Shown here: positions 15,695 to 25,914 of the stretch, piece after piece
Position numbering within the stretch: the first letter of the stretch is position 1
Layout of the letters: each line of letters opens with the position of its first letter
DNA from: Prolixibacteraceae bacterium
Lineage (GTDB): Bacteria > Bacteroidota > Bacteroidia > Bacteroidales > Prolixibacteraceae
Length of the DNA stretch: 39,559 nt
Direction: 5' to 3'
Assembly (NCBI GenBank): GCA_019163175.1
Contig: JAFLKN010000071.1
Coordinates: 1 to 39,559 of the forward strand
Notes under the pieces: model-generated
What the model saw: only the letters and a program-made list of their open reading frames with translations
The model's database searches: none
Told to the model about the DNA's origin: nothing
Translations under genes and position numbers: made by a program

Positions 15695-16357
15695 TTAATG
15701 TGAATCAATCTTTGCTCCGAATGCTAAATCGCCAGCATCGCCTAGTCCTGGAACAATATACGACATGGGTGTCATTTCGGGATCAACTGCGCCAATCCAT
15801 AAGGTAACATTTTCAGCAGTGATATTTTTGACTACATGCGCAACTCCCTGAGCACTGGCAATAACTGCAACTAAATGTACATGTTTGGGAGCTCCTTTTT
15901 GAAGCAGTGCGTGATAGCCAATTTCCATTGAAGCTCCTGAAGCCAGCATCGGATCAGAAAGAATAAGATCCTTTCCATCGAGCGATGGAGAGGCCAGATA
16001 TTCGAATTCGATGTGGAATTCACCAGCTTCGTCGTATTTCCGGTAAGCCGAAATAAATGCATTTTCGGCGCGATCAAAAATGTTCAGTAATCCTTGCTGT
16101 ACGGGTAAACCGGCACGTAAAATGGTAGCAAGAACCGGGTGTTGTACAAGGGTAGAAACAGGTGCTATTCCGAGCGGAGTTTTTATGTCGGTAGTTTCGT
16201 AATCCATTACCTTGCTGATTTCGTAGGCAAAAATTTCGCCCAGACGCTGCAGGTTTTTGCGGAAACGCATTGGATCTTTTTGAATTACTTCACAGCGGAT
16301 TTCAGAAATGAACTGGTTGAAAATGGAATTCGATTCCCCAAGTATGATTACCTTCAT
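15695..16357 (-). CDS. upp: Uracil phosphoribosyltransferase
   Basis: 220 residues. The PRPP-binding segment SDPMLASGAS (134-143) and the uracil-binding C-terminal block GLGDAGDLAFG (204-214) are present; RAGLPVQQGL (81-90) is also characteristic. It salvages uracil to UMP using PRPP, in the cytoplasm. PRPP loop residues differ slightly from the enterobacterial ATGGS version, as in other Bacteroidota. It lies 55 bp after the end of the seven-gene operon and could be read through from it. Confidence 0.93.
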   Translation of the reverse strand: MKVIILGESNSIFNQFISEIRCEVIQKDPMRFRKNLQRLGEIFAYEISKVMDYETTDIKTPLGIAPVSTLVQHPVLATILRAGLPVQQGLLNIFDRAENAFISAYRKYDEAGEFHIEFEYLASPSLDGKDLILSDPMLASGASMEIGYHALLQKGAPKHVHLVAVIASAQGVAHVVKNITAENVTLWIGAVDPEMTPMSYIVPGLGDAGDLAFGAKIDSH

Positions 16358-16412: not shown

Positions 16413-17507
16413 TTAAGTAAAAACAACATCCCCATCCCCATCTTGTATCTCAGGATATTTCTGATATAAACCTGAAAGTTCTTTGGGAATTGCGATCAAC
16501 CGCCTGACCCTTTTTTTGAACAGAAAGGGATGAGAAACCGAGTTCATTTGTTGTACCAATTTGGGCGAAAAGACAGTTAGTGTAACCGCTTTTTGCCGCA
16601 CTGTTTCGCAATAAATTGCCTTTACAATCAGCGGTGCAGCATCGTCTTCAAAATAAGCATACGGAACTTTCAGGTGTCCATCTCTTACAGAAATGAATAG
16701 TAGTCCGAAGAGTTGGTTCGCACCTTCAATTTTTACAAAATACTGATTGAAATTTTTAACAAGGTGTGAGAAGGGATATTCAATTTGAGAATTTAACTGT
16801 TCATCATTTTGCTTTATCCAGGGATGCTGAATAATCCATTCGAGTTCAGTGCCCGATCTACGTGTAAATTCATTGCCGGAATGGGTTTCGATGAACTTAT
16901 TCAATTCCGGATTCAGCGCTGTTAGATAGTCTAATTTAAGGCTGTTGTTCCTGATTTTTGAATGACGTATTTTCTGAAAGGGAATCAATAGGAAATTGAG
17001 GATTTGATCCGTCAGGTTTAGTAAGAATTTCAATTTTCGCAGGGTGGGAAATTTGGCTGGAACCACTTCGTGAAGATTAAATTTCAGGAATCCACGAATT
17101 CCGGGCTCTGTTTCAGGGAAATCGAACCTATTTGTTTTTTCAAGAATACGTTGGGTATGCGGTGTACAATCTGTCATAAACATACGGTGATTGCAAACAG
17201 AAAAAGCCCTCAGGAATAATGGAATTGCAAGGTGCTTTCCTTTTTCCGGATCGACCCACCAGCAAGAGTTTGAACTTGCGGGCTGGGTGGCATCGCCGTG
17301 TATAAAATCGGGAAGTAATCCGACCAGACCTGTCAAAGTGTTATTTTCGTGTGCAATAATTAGGGCAATGTCTTCCGGATTTGCACGTGGATTTTTCGAT
17401 TGCGCAGTTGCCCGTAGAAAAGTTATTGGCTTGGGCGATAGATTTTGCCAGAGATTTCCGGCAACAAAATCAGGCAATCCGGCAACTGTTATTTCGGTAA
17501 TCTGCAT
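16413..17507 (-). CDS. Large acyltransferase-like protein (GNAT-type), last operon gene
   Basis: 364 residues from ATG at 17507; this start overlaps the carrier-protein stop by one base (TAATG), giving tight coupling, so I prefer it to an upstream ATG that would overlap more. The N-terminal half contains a GNAT-like region: a beta-strand LTGLVGLLPDF, then WWVDPEKGKHLAIPLFLRAF in place of the acetyl-CoA loop, and a following MFMTDCTPHTQRILEKTNRFDF. A second divergent GNAT-like half (about 200-360) is suggested by similar strand and helix spacing. Given its fusion-like coupling to the carrier protein, it may accept the acyl chain from the carrier. The exact function is unknown. Confidence 0.6.
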   Translation of the reverse strand: MQITEITVAGLPDFVAGNLWQNLSPKPITFLRATAQSKNPRANPEDIALIIAHENNTLTGLVGLLPDFIHGDATQPASSNSCWWVDPEKGKHLAIPLFLRAFSVCNHRMFMTDCTPHTQRILEKTNRFDFPETEPGIRGFLKFNLHEVVPAKFPTLRKLKFLLNLTDQILNFLLIPFQKIRHSKIRNNSLKLDYLTALNPELNKFIETHSGNEFTRRSGTELEWIIQHPWIKQNDEQLNSQIEYPFSHLVKNFNQYFVKIEGANQLFGLLFISVRDGHLKVPYAYFEDDAAPLIVKAIYCETVRQKAVTLTVFSPKLVQQMNSVSHPFLFKKRVRRLIAIPKELSGLYQKYPEIQDGDGDVVFT

Positions 17508-17746
17508 TATGCTTGTTTTGCTTGTACGCAATCAACAAAATCGCCAATCGAGCTGATCCCAATGATTTCCATAATATCGAATGTGACTCCAAATTCCCTT
17601 TCGATGCTGGCGATGAGGGTGACATGGGTCATTGAGTCCCACTTTTCGAGGTCAGTGGCCGCCGTTTTTTCAGTAATGACAGTGCATTCACCAAATATCG
17701 TTTGACAAATAGATTCTATTCTGGAGAAAATTTCTGATCTGCTCAT
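17507..17746 (-). CDS. Free acyl/peptidyl carrier protein
   Basis: 79 residues with the four-helix carrier-protein pattern. The phosphopantetheine attachment site is S38 in KWDSMTHVTLIASIEREF, the usual DS(M/L) motif at the start of helix II, and acidic EREFGVTF follows. It is not the fatty-acid AcpP: the sequence is less acidic and its genetic partners are an adenylation enzyme and acyltransferases. Overlaps of 4 nt with the GNAT upstream and 1 nt with the gene downstream show one operon. A phosphopantetheinyl transferase is not in the window and must act in trans. Confidence 0.88.
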   Translation of the reverse strand: MSRSEIFSRIESICQTIFGECTVITEKTAATDLEKWDSMTHVTLIASIEREFGVTFDIMEIIGISSIGDFVDCVQAKQA

Positions 17747-18513
17747 ATATTCGATTTTAAATACCGGTACAAAAAGAATTGATTTATGGGCTGAAAGCCG
17801 AATTTTAAATACATGGGTTCGCCCGATTGTGTTGCGTGTAAAATTACCGGTTTTTTTGATTTTTGTGCGAGTTGCGATAGAATATGATGAACTAACAGAC
17901 TGGCAAATCCCTGCTTTTGAGCTGATTTTTCAGTAGCAATCAAATACAATCCGGTAGATTCTGTCGATTCAAAAACCAGGATAGTGCTTACACCGATTCC
18001 ATCCTTTTGCATCAGATAGGCATCAAATTCGGGTAAGGCAGTCAAACTTTTCAGCAGAGACTCCTCCATCCTTAGAGGAGATACTAATTCTGTATTCACA
18101 ATTTTTAGCCATTGTTCAAGCTCCGATACACTTTCAGGTTTTACGATTTCGATTGCATCGGGCAGTTCTTGCGGAGTGAGGTTTTGCAAATTGGAGAGCA
18201 CCATTCCTTTCCATGCAGTAAACGGATAAAAACCTTGCTGCCTGAGAAAAGGATCGATCTGGCGAATGTTTTCATCGCCTGCAATTAGCAGTTCAGGCAA
18301 TTGACCGGACTTGACTTTCTCGGAAAAAGTTGATGATACGTCGGGTACAATAATGTTTTGATCGACCTGATATACCAAACGGGGCCAATATCCGGAGGCA
18401 TTTTTTGAAACAGACCAATGTTTCTGTTTGTCAGTTTCCAGGCCACAGATTTGACTGATCGAATCGTAAAACTCGTATAAATTGCTCCCGATATGTTTGG
18501 CGATGCTATTCAT
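17743..18513 (-). CDS. GNAT-family acyltransferase
   Basis: 256 residues. The C-terminal part is a recognisable GNAT domain: strand TGLYLIATEKSAQ, then the CoA-pyrophosphate loop QKQGFASLLVHHIL (Q-x-x-G-x-A), and YLKFGFQPINQFFLYRYL at the end. The N-terminal 110 residues look like a degenerate second GNAT half. It overlaps the adenylation gene by 8 nt and the carrier gene by 4 nt. The substrate is unknown; likely roles are transfer of the carrier-bound (amino)acyl group or N-acylation of it. Confidence 0.75.
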   Translation of the reverse strand: MNSIAKHIGSNLYEFYDSISQICGLETDKQKHWSVSKNASGYWPRLVYQVDQNIIVPDVSSTFSEKVKSGQLPELLIAGDENIRQIDPFLRQQGFYPFTAWKGMVLSNLQNLTPQELPDAIEIVKPESVSELEQWLKIVNTELVSPLRMEESLLKSLTALPEFDAYLMQKDGIGVSTILVFESTESTGLYLIATEKSAQKQGFASLLVHHILSQLAQKSKKPVILHATQSGEPMYLKFGFQPINQFFLYRYLKSNI

Positions 18514-20005
18514 AAATCAGGTTTGAGTAATCCTCAAAGAGGCGTGATTTGTCAATTTTACCGTTTGAATTAAGCGGAAATTGGCCAATGCTGATTATTT
18601 TTTCGGGAATGAAAATGGCCGGTAGAACAGCCCGGAGTTTATCTTTTAGAATCTCAGGCGAGATTTCGATTTTCTCGACAAACGCAACAATGCCTGTAGT
18701 TCCTGTTCTCGACTGGTATCCGGATACTTTGGATTTTAACCCATTGGCTACTTCGCTGATGGCCAGTTCGATCTCTGCCGGTTCAATCCGGTATCCGCTA
18801 ATCTTCAACTGATCATCTTTCCGACCGCAAAAGAATAAATATCCACCTTCATCCTGAATAACCAAATCGCCACTGCGGTAATATTTCTCCTGAATACCAT
18901 TTTCGTTATGCACAAAAAAAGTGCTGTAATCGGCTTTTGAAACGGAAATGTAGCCCTCCATAACCTGATCGCCTCCAATGCAGAGTTCTCCCTTTTCGCC
19001 ACAGCCAACGATTTCGTCATTTTCATCCAGAATTAAAATGTTGACGGTTTTTAAAGGTTTCCCAATCGAAATAGCCCCATTGTAAATCCGCTCCTGAAGT
19101 TGATCGATTTCGGTCCGGTGAATGGTGCAGGTAATGGTGGTTTCGGTAGGTCCGTATATGTTTGATATTTCAGCATTTGGTACGCACAAAGCCCAGTCTG
19201 AAATCAAATTGAAAGGCAAGGATTCGCCTCCAAAATGGGAGTGTTTCAGCGCATTGAACCGAAGTGATTTTAAGTAGGGGCGAAGATAATGAAGAACGGA
19301 AGGTGTAAATTGAGTCCAGGTAATTTGCTGTTCCTGAAGTATTTTTACTATCGAAAGGTATTTAATACTCCTTGGAGGAATGGTATAAACGCTTGCGCCA
19401 AGCAACAAAGGAATAACATATCCGGTAAATGCAGCATCGGAGGTGAGGTCGTACGTTTGCAGGAACCGATCTGCTGAAGTTAAATCAGGATAGAGTTCCA
19501 GAAACCCTTCAACAAAAGCATTTAGATTTTTAACGTTGATCGGGACTCCTTTAGGTTTGCCCGTACTTCCGGAAGTAAAAAGAATGTACGCACGATCGGA
19601 CTGCAAAGAAACTGCTTGCGTTATGGTGCTTTTCAGACCTTTATTGCACAGCGTTTCTGCCTGAAATTCATGCGCTGAAAGTTCTGTTTCCGAATCGAAA
19701 ATGTACTTTAATCCTGATAGTTGAATTTTTTCTGCATTAACAGGTGCTGGGTGATGCGGATGAAGCGGCACAAAATAACATCCTGAGAACCAGATAGCAA
19801 AAATAGCCGCAAAGGTTTCAATCGAGTTGTGGCAAATTACCCCGACCGGAATGCCTGTGTCACCAACGTATTCCTGTAACATAATCTGGCTTCCATTGAT
19901 GTACTCAACGAATTCACGATAGGAATAAAACCTTCCTTCGATGCAGAACGCATTTTTTGAGGCATTCTCAGAAAAGCTGGCATTAAATTTCTCCCAAAGA
20001 TTCAT
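18506..20005 (-). CDS. Stand-alone amino-acid-type adenylation enzyme
   Basis: 499 residues, ANL superfamily, with all core motifs: A3 FTSGSTGKPKG (143-153), A5 NIYGPTETT (282-290), A7 YRSGDL (376-381), A8 GRKDDQLKISGYRIEP (394-409) and catalytic K483 in NSNGKIDK. D186 in YDLT corresponds to the Asp that holds the alpha-amino group in NRPS and DltA-type enzymes, so an amino acid is the likeliest substrate. No carrier or condensation domain is fused; the free carrier protein is two genes downstream. DltA (D-Ala activation) is the nearest known parallel, but DltB/DltD are absent. It is not MenE: the men genes are in another operon and the motifs are amino-acid type. Confidence 0.85.
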   Translation of the reverse strand: MNLWEKFNASFSENASKNAFCIEGRFYSYREFVEYINGSQIMLQEYVGDTGIPVGVICHNSIETFAAIFAIWFSGCYFVPLHPHHPAPVNAEKIQLSGLKYIFDSETELSAHEFQAETLCNKGLKSTITQAVSLQSDRAYILFTSGSTGKPKGVPINVKNLNAFVEGFLELYPDLTSADRFLQTYDLTSDAAFTGYVIPLLLGASVYTIPPRSIKYLSIVKILQEQQITWTQFTPSVLHYLRPYLKSLRFNALKHSHFGGESLPFNLISDWALCVPNAEISNIYGPTETTITCTIHRTEIDQLQERIYNGAISIGKPLKTVNILILDENDEIVGCGEKGELCIGGDQVMEGYISVSKADYSTFFVHNENGIQEKYYRSGDLVIQDEGGYLFFCGRKDDQLKISGYRIEPAEIELAISEVANGLKSKVSGYQSRTGTTGIVAFVEKIEISPEILKDKLRAVLPAIFIPEKIISIGQFPLNSNGKIDKSRLFEDYSNLIYE

Positions 20006-21030
20006 TGTCGTCGAACTTTATTTTTCCCCAAAATTGTTTTTAAATAATACCAGATGTATTCTGTTCGGATAAGTTGTTTCGCATTGCTGAAATTCCCGGA
20101 TTCCATCGGGATGCGTTGAATGTGATTGGCTATATGCTCGTCTTTGATTCCGGCCGTTCCAAAACTCAAATCCCAGATTTTTGATTGATTGGCCTTCTCA
20201 AAAACGGAATCAAGCACTTTAAAGTCGGTAAACGGAAAGGCAAAAGTCTTTAATTCAGGATTTATTTCCTGAATAAGAAAGTACATGCTTGCTATTATTT
20301 GTCGGTAAATTTCTTCTTCCGAAGAAAGGAAAAATTCACGATGATCCATGCTGTGTGCTCCGATTAAAAAACCGTCAGCCTGCAATTCTTTAATTTGCGC
20401 CATAGTCATGTAGGGCTGATGGCTTGTCAGAAAATGATTAAAGTCGATACTGAAGATTGCTGCGACACGATCGAGCAGCGGATGATCCGTGTATACTGCC
20501 CGGCGAAGAAATTCCTGGAGATTTTTACTGGGTTGCTCTTGTTTTACGAGGAGTTCTGCTTCCTTCTGTTCCGCTAGTTTAAATTGATTTTCATTTATAG
20601 CCTTTAAAATCAAACTTGCTTTGTGGCGATGGAAAAGTGATTTATTATCGACGAACGATGGATTTATAAAAAAAGCAGCATCGATACCTTTTCGTTTCAG
20701 GATCGGAGCAATTATATGAAAACACTCAGCCAGTCCGTCATCGAATGTTGGAAAGAACAACTTTGGCCTTAATATCTCGGGTTGCTGCGAATACTGCAGA
20801 ACATCTTTTATTGACGCCGATTTGAAGTTTTTCAATAAAAAGTCAAGGTCACGTTCAAATTCAGAAACTGTTGGAACACGGTACAATTGCGATAAATGCG
20901 AATTCGGAACATCTGAAACTGCGTGCCAGAAAGGGAAAATAAAGCGTTTCCTGTTGAAAGGTATTCCTTTTTCAAGTGGCAGAATTCTGCTTAATGGCGA
21001 TAGTGTATTTTTGAATCGTGAGTTGCTCAT
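20002..21030 (-). CDS. NodB-type polysaccharide deacetylase
   Basis: 342 residues. NodB homology motifs: TFDDGL (95-100) with the catalytic base and metal Asp pair D97/D98, and GAHSMDH (224-230) with metal ligands H226 and H230; FAFPFTDF is the motif 3 equivalent. A helical insertion of about 75 residues separates motifs 1 and 2. No signal peptide is evident, so it probably works in the cytoplasm on a lipid- or nucleotide-linked sugar, or on a small molecule. It overlaps the adenylation gene by 4 nt. Freeing an amino group on a sugar would make an acceptor for the neighbouring acyltransferases. Confidence 0.85.
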   Translation of the reverse strand: MSNSRFKNTLSPLSRILPLEKGIPFNRKRFIFPFWHAVSDVPNSHLSQLYRVPTVSEFERDLDFLLKNFKSASIKDVLQYSQQPEILRPKLFFPTFDDGLAECFHIIAPILKRKGIDAAFFINPSFVDNKSLFHRHKASLILKAINENQFKLAEQKEAELLVKQEQPSKNLQEFLRRAVYTDHPLLDRVAAIFSIDFNHFLTSHQPYMTMAQIKELQADGFLIGAHSMDHREFFLSSEEEIYRQIIASMYFLIQEINPELKTFAFPFTDFKVLDSVFEKANQSKIWDLSFGTAGIKDEHIANHIQRIPMESGNFSNAKQLIRTEYIWYYLKTILGKNKVRRQ

Positions 21031-21037
21031 CGGGTTT

Positions 21038-21952
21038 CTATTTTATCAACCACCGCAAAGGGATGGGCAACCGGTTTAATTTCAAACTGTAATAATGTTC
21101 CGTTTGGGCGCCAAAGCCTGCATAAAATCTGGCGATTCCCGGAATGGACGATCCTTCAAAGTCGAGGGTTAAATCAGTGCCGGAATGTTCCCGGATAAAC
21201 TGATCGACGATCTGGTACATTGAACTGTTCGCTTTTCCTTCGTTCGACGAGGCGGCATTCAGATAAGTAACTCGCTGTCCTGCAACTAAAAAAAATGCAG
21301 CAGAACAAAGTATATTCTCCTGACTATAGGCCGCATAAATCATTCCTTTCCCATGGCTTGTTCCGTATTCAATCAACCGTTTTAAAGTTTGCATCGATGG
21401 CTTGGAAAGTTTATTCTCAGTCGCCAGATTTTTCAAATCCAGATATTCTTTGGTCTGCAATCCTTTAATTACAACTACTTTGTTGTCTTCGGCTTTTCGA
21501 ATTTGACGGCGGGTATGTTTCGAGAAATTATTCTTCAGTTCGTCGTAGGTTGAGCTCAGGTTCAGGATGAGATTTGTACGTTGGCTAAGGTGAAAACCAT
21601 CGGGAATATCAGATGAATGATTGGAGTTTAATTGAATAGCCACGTAGCTAAAATGCTCTTTAATGTAATTCATAAAGATATGTTGAACCGATCCGCTTGC
21701 TTCAGGAAAAATACCATGTTGTTGGGCAAAAATGGGTTGAAGTAGAAAATTAATACCGAGTTTTTTCCTGATGTTTAAAGGCATGATAAAATCGTAATCT
21801 CCAATGATTAGGCCATCCCATCCGGGAGAAATCAGATCAAGGTAATCGGATTGGGCGTACACTAACGGAACGACTGCGCGGGCAACACATGAATCCCATT
21901 TGCCGTAATCAACATCCTTATTTTTTACCAGTCTGACTTCAGGATTGCTCAT
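21038..21952 (-). CDS. FemAB-like (BioF2-type) acyltransferase
   Basis: 304 residues. The central KHTRRQIRKAE segment and the C-terminal LDFEGSSIPGIARFYAGFGA block are the hallmarks of the FemAB-like Acetyltransf_6 family, which includes peptidoglycan-bridge aminoacyl transferases and exosortase-associated FemAB proteins. Such enzymes move an aminoacyl group to an amine acceptor, classically from aminoacyl-tRNA. Here an amino-acid adenylation enzyme plus carrier protein in the same operon suggests a carrier-bound donor. It overlaps the gene upstream by 14 nt and is 7 bp before the deacetylase. Confidence 0.8.
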   Translation of the reverse strand: MSNPEVRLVKNKDVDYGKWDSCVARAVVPLVYAQSDYLDLISPGWDGLIIGDYDFIMPLNIRKKLGINFLLQPIFAQQHGIFPEASGSVQHIFMNYIKEHFSYVAIQLNSNHSSDIPDGFHLSQRTNLILNLSSTYDELKNNFSKHTRRQIRKAEDNKVVVIKGLQTKEYLDLKNLATENKLSKPSMQTLKRLIEYGTSHGKGMIYAAYSQENILCSAAFFLVAGQRVTYLNAASSNEGKANSSMYQIVDQFIREHSGTDLTLDFEGSSIPGIARFYAGFGAQTEHYYSLKLNRLPIPLRWLIK

Positions 21953-23282
21953 AGGTATATTTTAATCCCGTTTCCTTAATCTGTTCAAAAACTTTCCGCC
22001 AACCCGCCCACTGGCCTGATTCTTTGAGCGACTCATTATGCCACAAACTAATAAACGTTCCATCAACTTTTTTTACTTCAAGCATGAGCTCTTCTATTAG
22101 CTGACTGGCTTTTTCAGGATTGAGGTGCATATAATTTTTTAAAGTCACATCCATAACCTGAAACGGAAAAATCATTAATTCAGTACACTGGTTTTTACTA
22201 AGATCGAAAAATGGGAATGGAGTACAGGTTCCGGCACGGAATCCGGTCAGACTGGCAAAACCCATGGTATAATCGTTGGCAATGCCCAATTTCAGAAGAT
22301 TTTGATAGGTCTTCGGGAATCTGAGTTTCAGGTAGTGCTGGCGGCTCTGTGTAACCGGATGATCAATGATGTCTTCCAAACGGTCTTTTTCTTTTTCGAA
22401 CAACCAAATTTTTTGGTTTGATGCAAATGAAGGATGTATGCCGACATCGCAAACCGAAGATATATTGGAAATTAATTGCCTGAAATTTTTGTTTTTGTGT
22501 GAAATATTCTTGTCGTATTTGTTTCGATCGCCGACCAGAAAGAAAAACAGAATATATGCCAACTGCCCTTTATAAGTGTCCAGAATATATTTGTAGGTGT
22601 CGTAAGGATCGTTCTGAAGACCAAGAAAAACCACCAATCGCTGTTTCAATTCATTCCATTGGAGGTGCAGCGCTGCTTTCACGATTGCCCCGAATGATAC
22701 GAGCGGACTTTTATTTTTAAATGCCCAGGCATTATCTACGTCAATTGTTGTAAGGAACTGAAAGGATCGCCGTTGAAAGGAAAACTCCGGAAAATGTTTT
22801 GAAATTTGTTTTGCAACAAGGAAGGCCATCAAATCAACTATGGGTTTTTGATGCATTTGCAGTCGCGCCAAAAGGTTTTCAGAATCAGTGAAACGGTCAT
22901 ATTCGTCTGAACTTTCCGAAAGATATTCTTCGTATCGCGTAACCAAATAAAATGTGCAGGCGAACGGATCGAAAGGTAAAAATGAATCAATTGATGTAGG
23001 AAAAAACAATTGTAGTTGCTCGTATTCGATAGATTCAATTTTTTGATCCTCAACTGTGGCTTCGTATAAAAGTGAATGTGAGTGCAGAAATAATCCGGAG
23101 GACAAATTTGTTTGCGAGTAATTTATCTTCGGAAGATCAGATTGTGTGAATTCACTTTGCTTTTGTGTAAAGGAAACTTCGATACCCAAAATTGTTCGAA
23201 AAATAAACCCAAAAGTAAATTCAACCCGTGGAGTAATTTCGGGCACAAAAATTAGAACCGGAGTATGTTGGGCTTTTTCCAC
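21939..23282 (-). CDS. DUF7033-type polysaccharide deacetylase-like protein
   Basis: 447 residues, first gene of the seven-gene operon. The N-terminal 165 residues match the DUF7033-type domain seen in front of Bacteroidota deacetylase folds (LPFDPFACTFYLVTRYEEY). The barrel has TIDVDNAWAF (179-188) as motif 1, GIHPSF with H283 as motif 2, FRAGTCTPFPFFDL near 348-361, and SLWHNESL near the C-terminus. Compared with NodB enzymes the second His of motif 2 is missing (H-P-S-F-A-S), so activity may differ. There is no signal peptide. It starts 72 bp after radC, and a promoter probably lies in that gap. Confidence 0.8.
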   Translation of the reverse strand: MEKAQHTPVLIFVPEITPRVEFTFGFIFRTILGIEVSFTQKQSEFTQSDLPKINYSQTNLSSGLFLHSHSLLYEATVEDQKIESIEYEQLQLFFPTSIDSFLPFDPFACTFYLVTRYEEYLSESSDEYDRFTDSENLLARLQMHQKPIVDLMAFLVAKQISKHFPEFSFQRRSFQFLTTIDVDNAWAFKNKSPLVSFGAIVKAALHLQWNELKQRLVVFLGLQNDPYDTYKYILDTYKGQLAYILFFFLVGDRNKYDKNISHKNKNFRQLISNISSVCDVGIHPSFASNQKIWLFEKEKDRLEDIIDHPVTQSRQHYLKLRFPKTYQNLLKLGIANDYTMGFASLTGFRAGTCTPFPFFDLSKNQCTELMIFPFQVMDVTLKNYMHLNPEKASQLIEELMLEVKKVDGTFISLWHNESLKESGQWAGWRKVFEQIKETGLKYTYEQS

Positions 23283-23354: not shown

Positions 23355-24044
23355 TCAAATAATTCCTTCATCGGCGAAGCTAAAATACGCATCATTTCCG
23401 ATAATCAGGTGGTCAAGTACCGGAATGTCCATGTGTTTGCCGGCTTCTTTTATTTTTCTGGTTATTTCTTTGTCTGCCTCGCTAGGCATCAAATTTCCCG
23501 AAGGGTGATTGTGGCATAGAATAATTGAACAGGCCAGTTTGTCGAGTGCCATTTTCAGAATGATTCTTACATCAATAATTGTTCCTGAAAGGCCACCCTG
23601 ACTGACCATCAATTTATCTATTACCAGATTGTTGCGGTTAAGCAAAAGTACCCAGAATTCTTCGTGGGGAAGATCGCTCAGCAAAGGTTTAAAGATCGTG
23701 GCGGCATCGGAGCTGGTCACTACTTTGGGTTTTTCATCGGGCTCCGATTCCTTACGTCGCCTACCAAGTTCAAGAGCTGCCATAATCGTAATGGCCTTAA
23801 CCTCGCCAATTCCTTTAAATTTCTTCAGGTCGTTAATGGTTTTCTTACCCAGTTCGTTGAGGTTATTGTTTACCGAAGCCAAAATCCGTCGCGAAACTTC
23901 TACTGCCGATTCATCAAGATTCCCTGAACCAATAAGTATGGCAATTAATTCGGCCTCGGAGAGAGAGCGAATTCCTTTGGTTAACATTTTTTCGCGTGGG
24001 CGATCTTCAACTGCCCATTCCTTGATACTTAGTTTTTTATACAT
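23355..24044 (-). CDS. radC: RadC family JAMM-domain protein
   Basis: 229 residues from ATG at 24044 (MYKKLSIKEWAVEDRPREKM, the normal start of Bacteroidota RadC; an upstream ATG would add 17 unusual residues). An N-terminal helix-hairpin-helix (LKKFKGIGEVKAITIMAALE, about 74-93) precedes a JAMM/MPN+ core with H178, H180, S188 and D191 in CHNHPSGNLMPSEAD, expected to hold zinc. The historical label is DNA repair protein, but that role is disputed; it may be a metalloprotease or nuclease-associated factor. It lies 66 bp after the protease gene. Confidence 0.92.
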   Translation of the reverse strand: MYKKLSIKEWAVEDRPREKMLTKGIRSLSEAELIAILIGSGNLDESAVEVSRRILASVNNNLNELGKKTINDLKKFKGIGEVKAITIMAALELGRRRKESEPDEKPKVVTSSDAATIFKPLLSDLPHEEFWVLLLNRNNLVIDKLMVSQGGLSGTIIDVRIILKMALDKLACSIILCHNHPSGNLMPSEADKEITRKIKEAGKHMDIPVLDHLIIGNDAYFSFADEGII

Positions 24045-24110
24045 AGGAGGTGGTTTATGATTAACTAAGTTATGAAACTGGGCTGAATTTGCCAAATTGT
24101 TGTTTAAAAT

Positions 24111-25817
24111 CTACTCCTTTTGTATTAATATGGATTGACCATTTACAACCAATATATAGGAACCCGAAGTTTGCTTACTCAAATCCAACTTCTGGGCACC
24201 AGACACATTCTTTTTTTCCAATATGAGTTTTCCATCAATAGCGTAGAGGGCCACTGTCGATTTTTTATCAGCAGGAATTCCATCAATGCTTATTAATCCA
24301 CTTGTAGGATTGGGGTAGATACGGACACTTGCATCTGTCAACGATTTAGTTGACATGGCTAATTTCTTCACCAGAACCTTTACTAAATCAGGAGTTGAAT
24401 TTGCAATGGTATTGTCGACCCTCAAAGAAAAAGTCAATATAGTATCATTCAGTACAAAGGGAGCAAAAAAGCTGGGCTTTGACGATTTTGCATCATTTAG
24501 TTTTATTCCAGCAGGCGCTACCCACTGATAGCTCAGTGTACCTTTCTCCGGATCTGTAGACTGAGTTCCATCTAAAGTAACCTGAGCAAGTGAATTTACT
24601 GTCAGATCAATTCCTGCATTCGCCAATGGCAAACCTTTAGGGAATAACTTGATTATCATCCGGTGGTTGTCATTAAAAATACTTTTACCCGGAGTTAGTG
24701 ATTTTAAATAAAAATACCATTGCGTGTCCTTTGGGTCTAAACCCCAACCCCAATTGAAGTGAAAATAGTTTGAGTTCTTATACCCGTCGCAGATGTAAAC
24801 ATGAGCGCTGGGGTTACCGCCAGATGTTCCTGTTGAGGAATACCAAATGGGGCGATAGGAATTCAATTCTGATTTTAGGAGATTTTCCCATTCGGTATCC
24901 GTGCCTTTATAAAATTCTCTCTCGTATTTTGTTGCTTCAGTTGAATAGTTAAAATATTTAATCCATCTATCTTTTGAAAAATATTCAGAATTTGAACCTG
25001 CCAGTCCAAAATCAGTTTCAAAAGCCACTCCGCAATGATAGATTAGTTTTTGTGCTTCTTTGCTGAAACTGCCACTGGTGTTTGGCTTGTTTGTCATTTG
25101 CTCCCAGGCGTAGGTTGTGGCGCCAAAATCAACCGACTGGGTTCCAAATGTTGAATTTGGATAGGAATGGTTGTCATTTCCTTTTTTTGGAAAATTCCAG
25201 TATTTCATTAATTGAGCCACCGCAATGGGTAAACAGCCTGCTGCCGCACGCCCATTATAGATGCTATCCTTCGGGATTGCCGGGCTCGGTGGGCACAAAC
25301 CGTTGTATGGATGTACCTGATGCCACCAGGTCTGCGTGAGTGGTCTGACGGAGGTGGTATCTTCGGCGGTAACTCCTGATAGCAGATCATTCCATTTAGA
25401 ATTGGTGAGACTATCTGCCTTCAGGTTATTCTTTTTGATATAGGCGATCTCAAGTTTTCTGCTTTCCATCCAGTCAGTTAAAGCCGGAGGAAGATTGTTA
25501 GGATTAAAATTACTGCTAGTGGAATATCCTAGAATTGGCCATACCCGATTATCGGCGGCCACAATTACAAAACTTCTATTAATGGTGTCATTCAGGATAT
25601 AATACAGCGTATCCTTGTTGCTTACGGCAGCATTAATTAGAGGGAATTGATTTTTTTTCTCATCAGGACTGGCTGATTTTAGTGTAGCCTGATAGATAGA
25701 CTTTAAGTGTGATTTTGCAATTTTCTTTGCTGTTTGAATAGAAACTGATTGTGCAAATAAAACAGACGATGACAGAACAAATACTAGTGATAGAGTAATG
25801 ATTTGATACTTTTTCAT
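24111..25817 (-). CDS. Secreted C10 (streptopain-like) cysteine protease, T9SS cargo
   Basis: 568 residues from ATG at 25817; residue numbers here count from four codons upstream. A signal peptide (ending FAQ) is followed by a Spi-type propeptide (about 30-155). The papain-fold domain has catalytic C199 (AAAGCLPIAVAQ) and H343 (SAHVYICDGY), with NWGWG after it. A PKD-like domain (about 402-487) and a type IX sorting tail (YPNPTSG at 505-511, SGSYILVV near the end) follow. It should cross the outer membrane by the type IX system and be activated by propeptide removal. Similar enzymes include SpeB and the Bacteroides Bfp proteases. Confidence 0.9.
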   Translation of the reverse strand: MKKYQIITLSLVFVLSSSVLFAQSVSIQTAKKIAKSHLKSIYQATLKSASPDEKKNQFPLINAAVSNKDTLYYILNDTINRSFVIVAADNRVWPILGYSTSSNFNPNNLPPALTDWMESRKLEIAYIKKNNLKADSLTNSKWNDLLSGVTAEDTTSVRPLTQTWWHQVHPYNGLCPPSPAIPKDSIYNGRAAAGCLPIAVAQLMKYWNFPKKGNDNHSYPNSTFGTQSVDFGATTYAWEQMTNKPNTSGSFSKEAQKLIYHCGVAFETDFGLAGSNSEYFSKDRWIKYFNYSTEATKYEREFYKGTDTEWENLLKSELNSYRPIWYSSTGTSGGNPSAHVYICDGYKNSNYFHFNWGWGLDPKDTQWYFYLKSLTPGKSIFNDNHRMIIKLFPKGLPLANAGIDLTVNSLAQVTLDGTQSTDPEKGTLSYQWVAPAGIKLNDAKSSKPSFFAPFVLNDTILTFSLRVDNTIANSTPDLVKVLVKKLAMSTKSLTDASVRIYPNPTSGLISIDGIPADKKSTVALYAIDGKLILEKKNVSGAQKLDLSKQTSGSYILVVNGQSILIQKE

Positions 25818-25914
25818 GGAATTATACAAAATAAATCGTTTTCTAAATATAACAAAATGTTTCTGATTTATTTAGTCTTCCTATTCGCAAATTGTATTTA
25901 TTGAGCTCAATCCG

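Follow-up and report, generated by a model that had tools for sequence, protein, structure and literature searches.

The linking sugar of the type IX secretion system (T9SS) is chemically known in three oral species in the literature cited here. According to Veith et al. 2020 (PMC7468200), VimE is a putative deacetylase and VimA adds serine or glycine. Acting on a sugar of the Wbp pathway, the two are proposed to put one of these amino acids in place of its 2-N-acetyl group, yielding the sugar to which the C termini of T9SS cargo are attached by an amide bond in Porphyromonas and Tannerella. According to two further papers, the linking sugar of P. gingivalis belongs to a pentasaccharide linker (PMC13086638), and the linker of Prevotella intermedia is an N-alanyl-deoxyhexose, also existing in a methylated form, in a species without VimA and VimE whose alanine-transfer pathway is unknown (PMC11969387). 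The words ‘tRNA’ and ‘carrier protein’ do not appear in the main text of PMC7468200, and the amino-acid donor is not addressed there in those terms. Here, we analyze a seven-gene operon, g1 to g7, within a 39,559-nucleotide stretch of a Prolixibacteraceae genome (contig JAFLKN010000071.1 of assembly GCA_019163175.1, positions 1 to 39,559; hereafter the window). We propose, with a probability of about 0.53, that it is a Vim-type amino-sugar-tailoring operon, extended by a swappable carrier-protein branch, that would act on the organism’s T9SS linking sugar.

All seven genes are co-oriented open reading frames (ORFs) on the minus strand, and their junctions show overlaps of 14, 4, 8, 4 and 1 bases and one 7-base gap. 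The original prediction, made from the letters of the window, had described seven leftward genes overlapping at nearly all junctions; its coordinates match the ORF list, and five of the six junctions overlap. The first gene, g1 (21939-23282, minus strand), encodes a DUF7033/VimE-like carbohydrate de-N-acetylase that matches PF23019 at 93.7 bits and has NF053580 (VimE, E 1.1e-51) as its sole NCBIfam match at E 0.01. The second, g2 (21038-21952, minus strand), encodes a VimA/FemX-like aminoacyltransferase. In a sample of 149 genomes of the order, the VimE cut-off is passed by four, none of which carries the g1 lineage, and one of the four (G105, locus L146) has the order bcp-recA-FemAB-PIG-L-VimE-glycosyltransferase, with bcp, recA and the glycosyltransferase called by eye and PIG-L by Pfam. 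This order is close to the vim arrangement of P. gingivalis; near the other three VimE loci above the cut-off, no FemAB gene was seen. A hidden Markov model (HMM) of the window’s g2 and 60 g2-type rows from fetched loci (52 distinct, some places twice), from which L146 was left out, matches the FemAB/VimA-like protein of that locus at 131 bits (E 5e-42, a two-sequence search), and both proteins have the motif DFEGS-IPG-RF-FGA in common. Likewise, an HMM of g1 rows matches the VimE of G105 at 200 bits, and the metal-type residues D181, D183, H283, H316 and H415 of g1 are kept across its 83 rows (70 distinct sequences) and in three of the four VimE proteins. By these comparisons, g1 is a VimE homologue and g2 a VimA homologue. 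The original prediction knew of no named pathway with such a gene set, which was wrong for the core: its two genes have homologues in the Wbp/Vim linking-sugar pathway.

Two further observations concern the VimE loci themselves. In G105, the gene for the PIG-L family deacetylase (L146:9190-9822) lies between the VimA-like and VimE genes. In G087, a VimE of 692 bits (L129:6452-7825) has Ser, Gln and Asn at the positions equivalent to D183, H283 and H316 of g1, and this genome has SprA and no PorU match, as if the VimE deacetylase had decayed along with the sortase.

The predicted fold of g2 bears on where its amino acid may come from. Its AlphaFold model (20 sequences) has a mean local confidence (pLDDT) of 92.1 and a predicted TM score (pTM) of 0.87, and the nearest PDB structures in a Foldseek search are the aminoacyl-tRNA-dependent Sbb17 and Sba18, FemX and FemA, followed by MprF. 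With E 5e-13 to 1e-12 for Sbb17, FemX and FemA, the model has the FemX/FemA fold, which backs the FemAB-like label first given to g2, a protein with a weak FemAB match by sequence (E 2e-4, under the cut-off). Because these nearest solved structures are aminoacyl-tRNA-dependent transferases, g2 probably takes its amino acid from aminoacyl-tRNA. Consequently, with g2 drawing on its own tRNA-borne amino acid, the carrier branch would probably perform a second acylation and not supply g2.

The g1 lineage (tier 1, matches above 200 bits) goes with the T9SS. It occurs in 77 of the 149 genomes of the order sample and in 30 of the 345 genomes of a phylum sample, the window’s own included, all of them within the class Bacteroidia. 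Among the 106 distinct genomes that carry it, 96 have PorU at our threshold of E 1e-30 or better, and the remaining 10 all have SprA, which was searched for in 33 genomes in all; three of the 96 PorU matches are weak (G095, G129 and G155, 3e-34 to 9e-45), and SprA was not run on these. The window’s own genome has a PorU of 1246 bits (cut-off 420; G000:C12:10099-13362) that adjoins PorV-like and GldJ-like genes, as judged by eye (L140). Neither PorU nor SprA was found in 11 Bacteroidia genomes, eight in the order sample and three others, and 0 of these 11 carry the g1 lineage; within the order sample the contrast is 77 of 141 versus 0 of the 8 doubly negative genomes (p 0.0024). A first contingency table had found either type of g1 in 107 of 134 PorU-positive versus 3 of 15 PorU-negative genomes; because 7 of those 15 carry SprA (only the top candidates per genome were scored), we softened this result and used the stricter doubly negative set.

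Weaker DUF7033 matches (tier 2, at most 170 bits) need separate treatment. We considered whether all of them are VimE, which proved wrong, as the VimE cut-off is passed by only four of the 149 genomes, and many tier-2 genes sit among glycan-type or unrelated genes. The PorU-positive genomes of the order sample divide into 5 with both tiers, 70 with tier 1 only, 32 with tier 2 only and 27 with neither (p 7e-10), but the strong mutual exclusion of the two tiers is only suggestive because tier 2 cannot be equated with VimE. Outside the class, eight genomes from three families of another class (G315, G355, G389, G393, G405, G425, G459 and G490) have a tier-2 DUF7033 gene about 19-35 kb from PorU on the same contig. 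We did not use this proximity as support, since in the genomes read (three at both ends, one at one end) the tier-2 genes are flanked by housekeeping genes.

The core pair occupies a recurring gene order, radC-g1-g2-[variable]-upp. In the window, the usual left neighbor radC lies at 23355-24095 (minus strand; PF04002/PF20582) and the usual right neighbor upp, for uracil phosphoribosyltransferase, at 15695-16357 (minus strand; PF14681, NF001097). In a set of 38 loci, several of whose contigs end early (L034, L043 and L045 reach the contig edge inside the gene set), g2 was found in 26, g3 in 11, upp in 21, radC in 22 and all seven genes in three (L036, L037 and L038), with no upp found behind the gene set in L036. 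The order sample adds g1-g7 in G043 (L111) and g2-g7 in G007 (L119), which belong to two other families; the only g1 homologue found in G007 is a weak one elsewhere in the genome. Because the set recurs in L036-L038 and L111, and its g2-g7 part in L119, the seven-gene set is not a chance arrangement, and a neighborhood check suggested at the outset finds it conserved beyond the strain, in loci of three families with L111 and L119 included.

The space between g2 and upp is either nearly empty or filled. After duplicate fetches were removed, 34 distinct loci carry g1, g2 and upp on a single piece; among them, only L032 and L033 exceed 90% likeness in g1. The g2-upp distance is at most 219 bp in 27 loci, which have no g3 match, and at least 1952 bp in the other seven, which all have g3; every one of these filled slots holds a second deacetylase plus at least one further tailoring gene. 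The deacetylase is accompanied by a methyltransferase in L046 (on the opposite strand) and L099, by a relative of the tandem-GNAT-like g7 in L050, by a g7 relative and a methyltransferase in L054, and by a GNAT, a sulfotransferase and a 256-amino-acid ORF, of methyltransferase type by eye, in L052. In L037 and L038, and likewise in the window, which comes in addition to the seven, it is joined by the adenylation enzyme, GNAT, carrier and tandem GNAT. In the g1 tree, long and short alleles are interleaved: short L031 is grouped with the window (96/97), and short L039 with long L034 (98/87). In the g2 tree, the six long alleles of the window’s group form a clade of their own (100/99), and nine short alleles form another (94/100). 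Because g1 alleles interleave while the long-allele g2 genes form a clade of their own, the trees, which cover g1 and g2, indicate an apparent replacement of g2 and the genes behind it while g1 stayed.

Several features of these loci are recorded in their own right. The methyltransferases between g3 and upp (L046, L054 and L099, with L052 by eye) form a family, some with zinc-ribbon-like N termini. In L049, L060, L071, L092 and L104, a WecB-type UDP-GlcNAc 2-epimerase gene lies upstream of g1, either next to it or one ORF away, giving radC-wecB-g1-g2-upp in L104 and L092 (in L092 with a split g2 and an epimerase recognized by motif only). It recalls the T. forsythia epimerase predicted in PMC7468200. 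L033 and L034 come from metagenome-assembled genomes titled Odoribacter and Chitinophaga pinensis; their g1 is 72% identical to the window’s and groups with Prolixibacteraceae, and either the record titles or the binning may be in error. The window also holds a C10 peptidase gene (24111-25829, minus strand), immediately upstream of radC and the operon. Its product combines a Spi inhibitor propeptide, a PKD domain and a sorting tail of the T9SS type and is likely to be a T9SS cargo.

We now turn to the genes behind g2. The NodB-type polysaccharide deacetylase g3 (20002-21030, minus strand; PF01522, Polysacc_deac_1, 6.1e-13) is the marker gene of the variable cassette, and its translation holds the motifs TFDDG and HSMDH. 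It is followed by g4 (18506-20005, minus strand; PF00501, AMP-binding, 7e-55), a stand-alone adenylation enzyme of the amino-acid type whose best NCBIfam match, TIGR01733 (AA-adenyl-dom), scores 286 bits, under the cut-off of 317. Alignment with adenylation enzymes places the Asp that would hold the substrate’s amino group at Asp190 (codon 19436-19438) in TSDAAFT; D186, the residue originally named, is the neighboring Asp in TYDLT. Two weaker relatives in the alignment, L081 and L105, do not have this Asp, and we take them to be fatty-acid-type ligases. The pocket code, read by alignment and not sufficient to assign an amino acid, is DATKHGG(I/V)TK in L036 and L038, whereas the window and L037 have DATQHGIITK, as does L034 as far as its sequence reaches. 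The free carrier protein g6 (17507-17746, minus strand; PF00550, PP-binding, 1.7e-6) has its phosphopantetheine site at Ser38 (codon 17633-17635), the serine already identified in the original prediction, and the genome encodes an Sfp-type protein of the phosphopantetheinyl transferase (PPTase) superfamily at about 65.3-65.9 kb of G000:C12 (PF01648, 34.4 bits, cut-off 25).

Two acyltransferases complete the branch. The GNAT N-acyltransferase g5 (17743-18513, minus strand) matches PF13673 at 1.2e-7, above the cut-off. The last gene, g7 (16413-17507, minus strand), is listed as an ORF reaching a TTG at 17531, and its ATG at 17507 overlaps the g6 stop. Its protein belongs to no described family, with no Pfam match at E 0.1 and no NCBIfam match at E 0.01, and its AlphaFold model (7 sequences; pLDDT 79.3, pTM 0.78) best matches tandem GNATs and FemX in the PDB (E about 2e-7 to 3e-7, TM about 0.35-0.5), resembling the tandem GNAT of clavulanic acid biosynthesis. 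An acyltransferase-like protein had been predicted here, and the modeled fold agrees in being a tandem GNAT. On these folds, the carrier branch probably has two candidate transferases, g5 and g7. This carrier form of the operon is rare, since only 15 of the 149 order genomes hold a relative of g4 at E 1e-60.

The enzymology first assigned to the operon is supported in part. Pfam and NCBIfam back the DUF7033, Polysacc_deac_1, AMP-binding, GNAT and PP-binding families, as well as an amino-acid-type adenylation enzyme with a free carrier adjacent, and the gene families fit a pair of deacetylases whose freed amines would be acted on by the FemAB/GNAT transferases. The prediction that the FemAB and GNAT proteins both pass on the loaded amino acid is kept for the GNATs, which would take it from the carrier, whereas the fold of the FemAB-like protein makes a tRNA supply more likely for it.

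A stand-alone adenylation enzyme and carrier might also serve other ends. As in the Dlt or Alm systems, the amino acid loaded by g4 and g6 could go to a lipid or polymer and alter its charge. This we consider improbable: g4 does match two DltA models, at 196.2 and 201.6 bits, but their cut-offs are 559.85 and 476, its code DATQHGIITK differs from the DLMLLCVIFK of relatives in L112, L114 and L116, and the Dlt system has no place for two deacetylases and a VimA homologue. A Pfam scan of the seven proteins found no DltB/MBOAT, and we rejected the Dlt system as the identity of this operon. In the same order, L117 and L121 do have Dlt-like sets in which a g4-like adenylation enzyme lies near an MBOAT protein (with a carrier too in L121); these are more distant g4 relatives, and no MBOAT was seen in the loci of the operon type studied here. 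L113 has two g4-like genes in tandem.

That the carrier builds a small secreted molecule, such as a peptide or an N-acyl amino acid amide, is a slimmer prospect still. The combination of stand-alone adenylation enzyme, carrier and GNATs would suit it, as would the nearness of the g7 fold to the clavulanic acid enzyme, but in 27 loci the g1-g2 core stands alone, upp being the next gene after g2, and none of the seven proteins shows a condensation, thioesterase or transporter domain in the Pfam scan. The missing condensation domain also led us to reject a modular nonribosomal peptide synthetase.

Taken as Vim homologues, g1 and g2 narrow the possible product, which had been left as a glycan, lipid or small molecule: an aminoacylated sugar becomes the likeliest product and T9SS cargo anchoring its likeliest use. 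In the mechanism that we infer, an activated amino sugar would lose one N-acetyl group through the action of g1, and g2 would place an amino acid on the freed amine, most likely from aminoacyl-tRNA. The second deacetylase, g3, would free a second amine. Meanwhile, g4 would activate an amino acid and load it onto g6, whose conversion to the holo form would fall to a PPTase such as the Sfp-type protein encoded elsewhere in the genome. From the carrier, where g5 may first N-acylate it as the original prediction suggested, this amino acid would be moved by g5 and/or g7 onto the second amine. The resulting sugar would be the organism’s T9SS linking sugar, whose free amino group the PorU sortase would join to cargo C termini. 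The identity of the substrate and of both amino acids, the donor of g2, the way in which g5 and g7 share the work, and the role in anchoring are all parts of this proposal.

A bolder extension, which we advance tentatively and hold to be doubtful, is that swapping at the slot beside upp rewrites the anchor chemistry for the whole T9SS surface proteome. Relatives would then exchange cassettes encoding a second deacetylase plus a GNAT, tandem GNAT, sulfotransferase, methyltransferase or carrier branch, and in the seven-gene form the cargo-receiving amino acid, or a second one next to it, would be borne by a carrier and not by tRNA. If true, it would constitute a carrier-protein-dependent route to a protein-anchoring sugar.

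Several observations weigh against a role in T9SS anchoring. The g1 score of 175.8 bits is far under the VimE equivalog cut-off of 440 (NF053580), and g2 has no NCBIfam match at E 0.01 or better, so that strict orthology of the pair to VimE and VimA is not shown by the sequences. In 12 of the 38 loci, no g2 is seen in the stretch covered. The T9SS does not need the g1 lineage: 27 of the 134 PorU-positive order genomes have neither type of g1, and the lineage is found in 22 of the 241 PorU-positive genomes of the phylum sample, none outside the class. Only 11 T9SS-negative genomes were tested, some of them small or incomplete, and they may have a lifestyle in common. That g1 goes with the T9SS while the T9SS can do without it is expected if linker chemistry varies by lineage, but also if the link is indirect. 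Two NDP-sugar dehydrogenases are present in the window’s own genome, but WbpB, WbpD and WbpE were not recognized by eye in about 97 kb around them, the rest of the genome being unsearched. A WecB-type epimerase has no match in this genome, and therefore the epimerases of its relatives are uninformative about the substrate in the window.

Some of these observations lend weight to an alternative that we judge unlikely while taking it seriously, namely that the operon decorates an ordinary amino sugar of the lipopolysaccharide O-antigen or capsule, has no T9SS role and co-occurs with the T9SS by shared ancestry. Many T9SS genomes do without this g1, the Wbp genes besides the dehydrogenases were not recognized in the stretches read, and DUF7033 paralogues also occur in O-antigen-type glycan loci, where they adjoin flippase-, glycosyltransferase- and epimerase-like genes. 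Cassette exchange at a fixed site, as seen here, is typical of surface-glycan loci. Against this alternative, the operon of the window lies between radC and upp, and by Pfam none of its seven genes encodes a glycosyltransferase, flippase or polymerase; moreover, a VimE-like protein is paired with a VimA-like one, and a T9SS marker is present in 106 of 106 carriers, three of them with weak matches. We favor a T9SS linking sugar as the target.

Least probable of all, and close to negligible, is that the operon serves exosortase (PEP-CTERM-like) sorting. PMC7468200 reports VimA-related proteins and deacetylases in exosortase loci, but PF09721 has 0 matches in the window’s own genome at E 0.001 (assembly 95.76% complete), in agreement with the absence of an exosortase first noted in the window, and g4 reaches 160 of the 592 bits set for the associated ligase. 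We rejected an exosortase partner accordingly.

The Wbp/Vim type of linking-sugar pathway is already known; what is new here is a variant operon with a swappable carrier cassette, whose chemistry and anchoring role we infer. Our literature search found no published carrier-protein-dependent route to a protein-anchoring sugar, no work joining a linking sugar, adenylation and type IX secretion, none on DUF7033, no matching O-antigen system with adenylation enzyme and carrier, and nothing relevant on the exosortase set; the part seen of a Flavobacterium collinsii study holds nothing on these genes. The g1 lineage points to a candidate linker locus in about half of the genomes sampled broadly across one order (77 of 149), and radC-g1-g2-upp offers a simple marker for it. 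In its modular form, the candidate linker locus gains a carrier protein and an amino-acid ligase, and the question of the amino-acid donor becomes testable with soluble enzymes.

Compared with known systems, the operon most resembles the Wbp/Vim pathway of P. gingivalis and T. forsythia, sharing a DUF7033 deacetylase and a VimA-type transferase in a PorU-bearing organism, and, as proposed, the replacement of an N-acetyl group on a sugar by an amino acid. It differs in gene order (radC-g1-g2-upp here, recA-vimA-vimE there), in a g1 under the VimE cut-off, in having a second deacetylase and a whole adenylation, carrier and GNAT branch, and in that WbpB, WbpD and WbpE were not located in the 97 kb read. 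The proposed product would share with the P. intermedia linker an amino acid on a T9SS linking sugar, and the methyltransferases in the slots of L046, L054 and L099 would allow methylation; unlike that species, reported to be without VimA and VimE, the operon has homologues of both. As in DltA-DltC and AlmE-AlmF-AlmG, an amino acid would be activated, loaded onto a free carrier and moved to a surface glycan or lipid, but here there is no DltB/MBOAT in the operon, the transferases have GNAT folds, and deacetylases and a VimA homologue stand alongside. The gene set of exosortase A loci (FemAB, TIGR03019; AMP ligase, TIGR03098) likewise brings a deacetylase, a FemAB protein and an AMP ligase together. 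It differs from the present operon, where g4 scores 160.3 bits versus the TIGR03098 cut-off of 592.35, g2 is without an NCBIfam match at E 0.01 and no exosortase was found in the genome.

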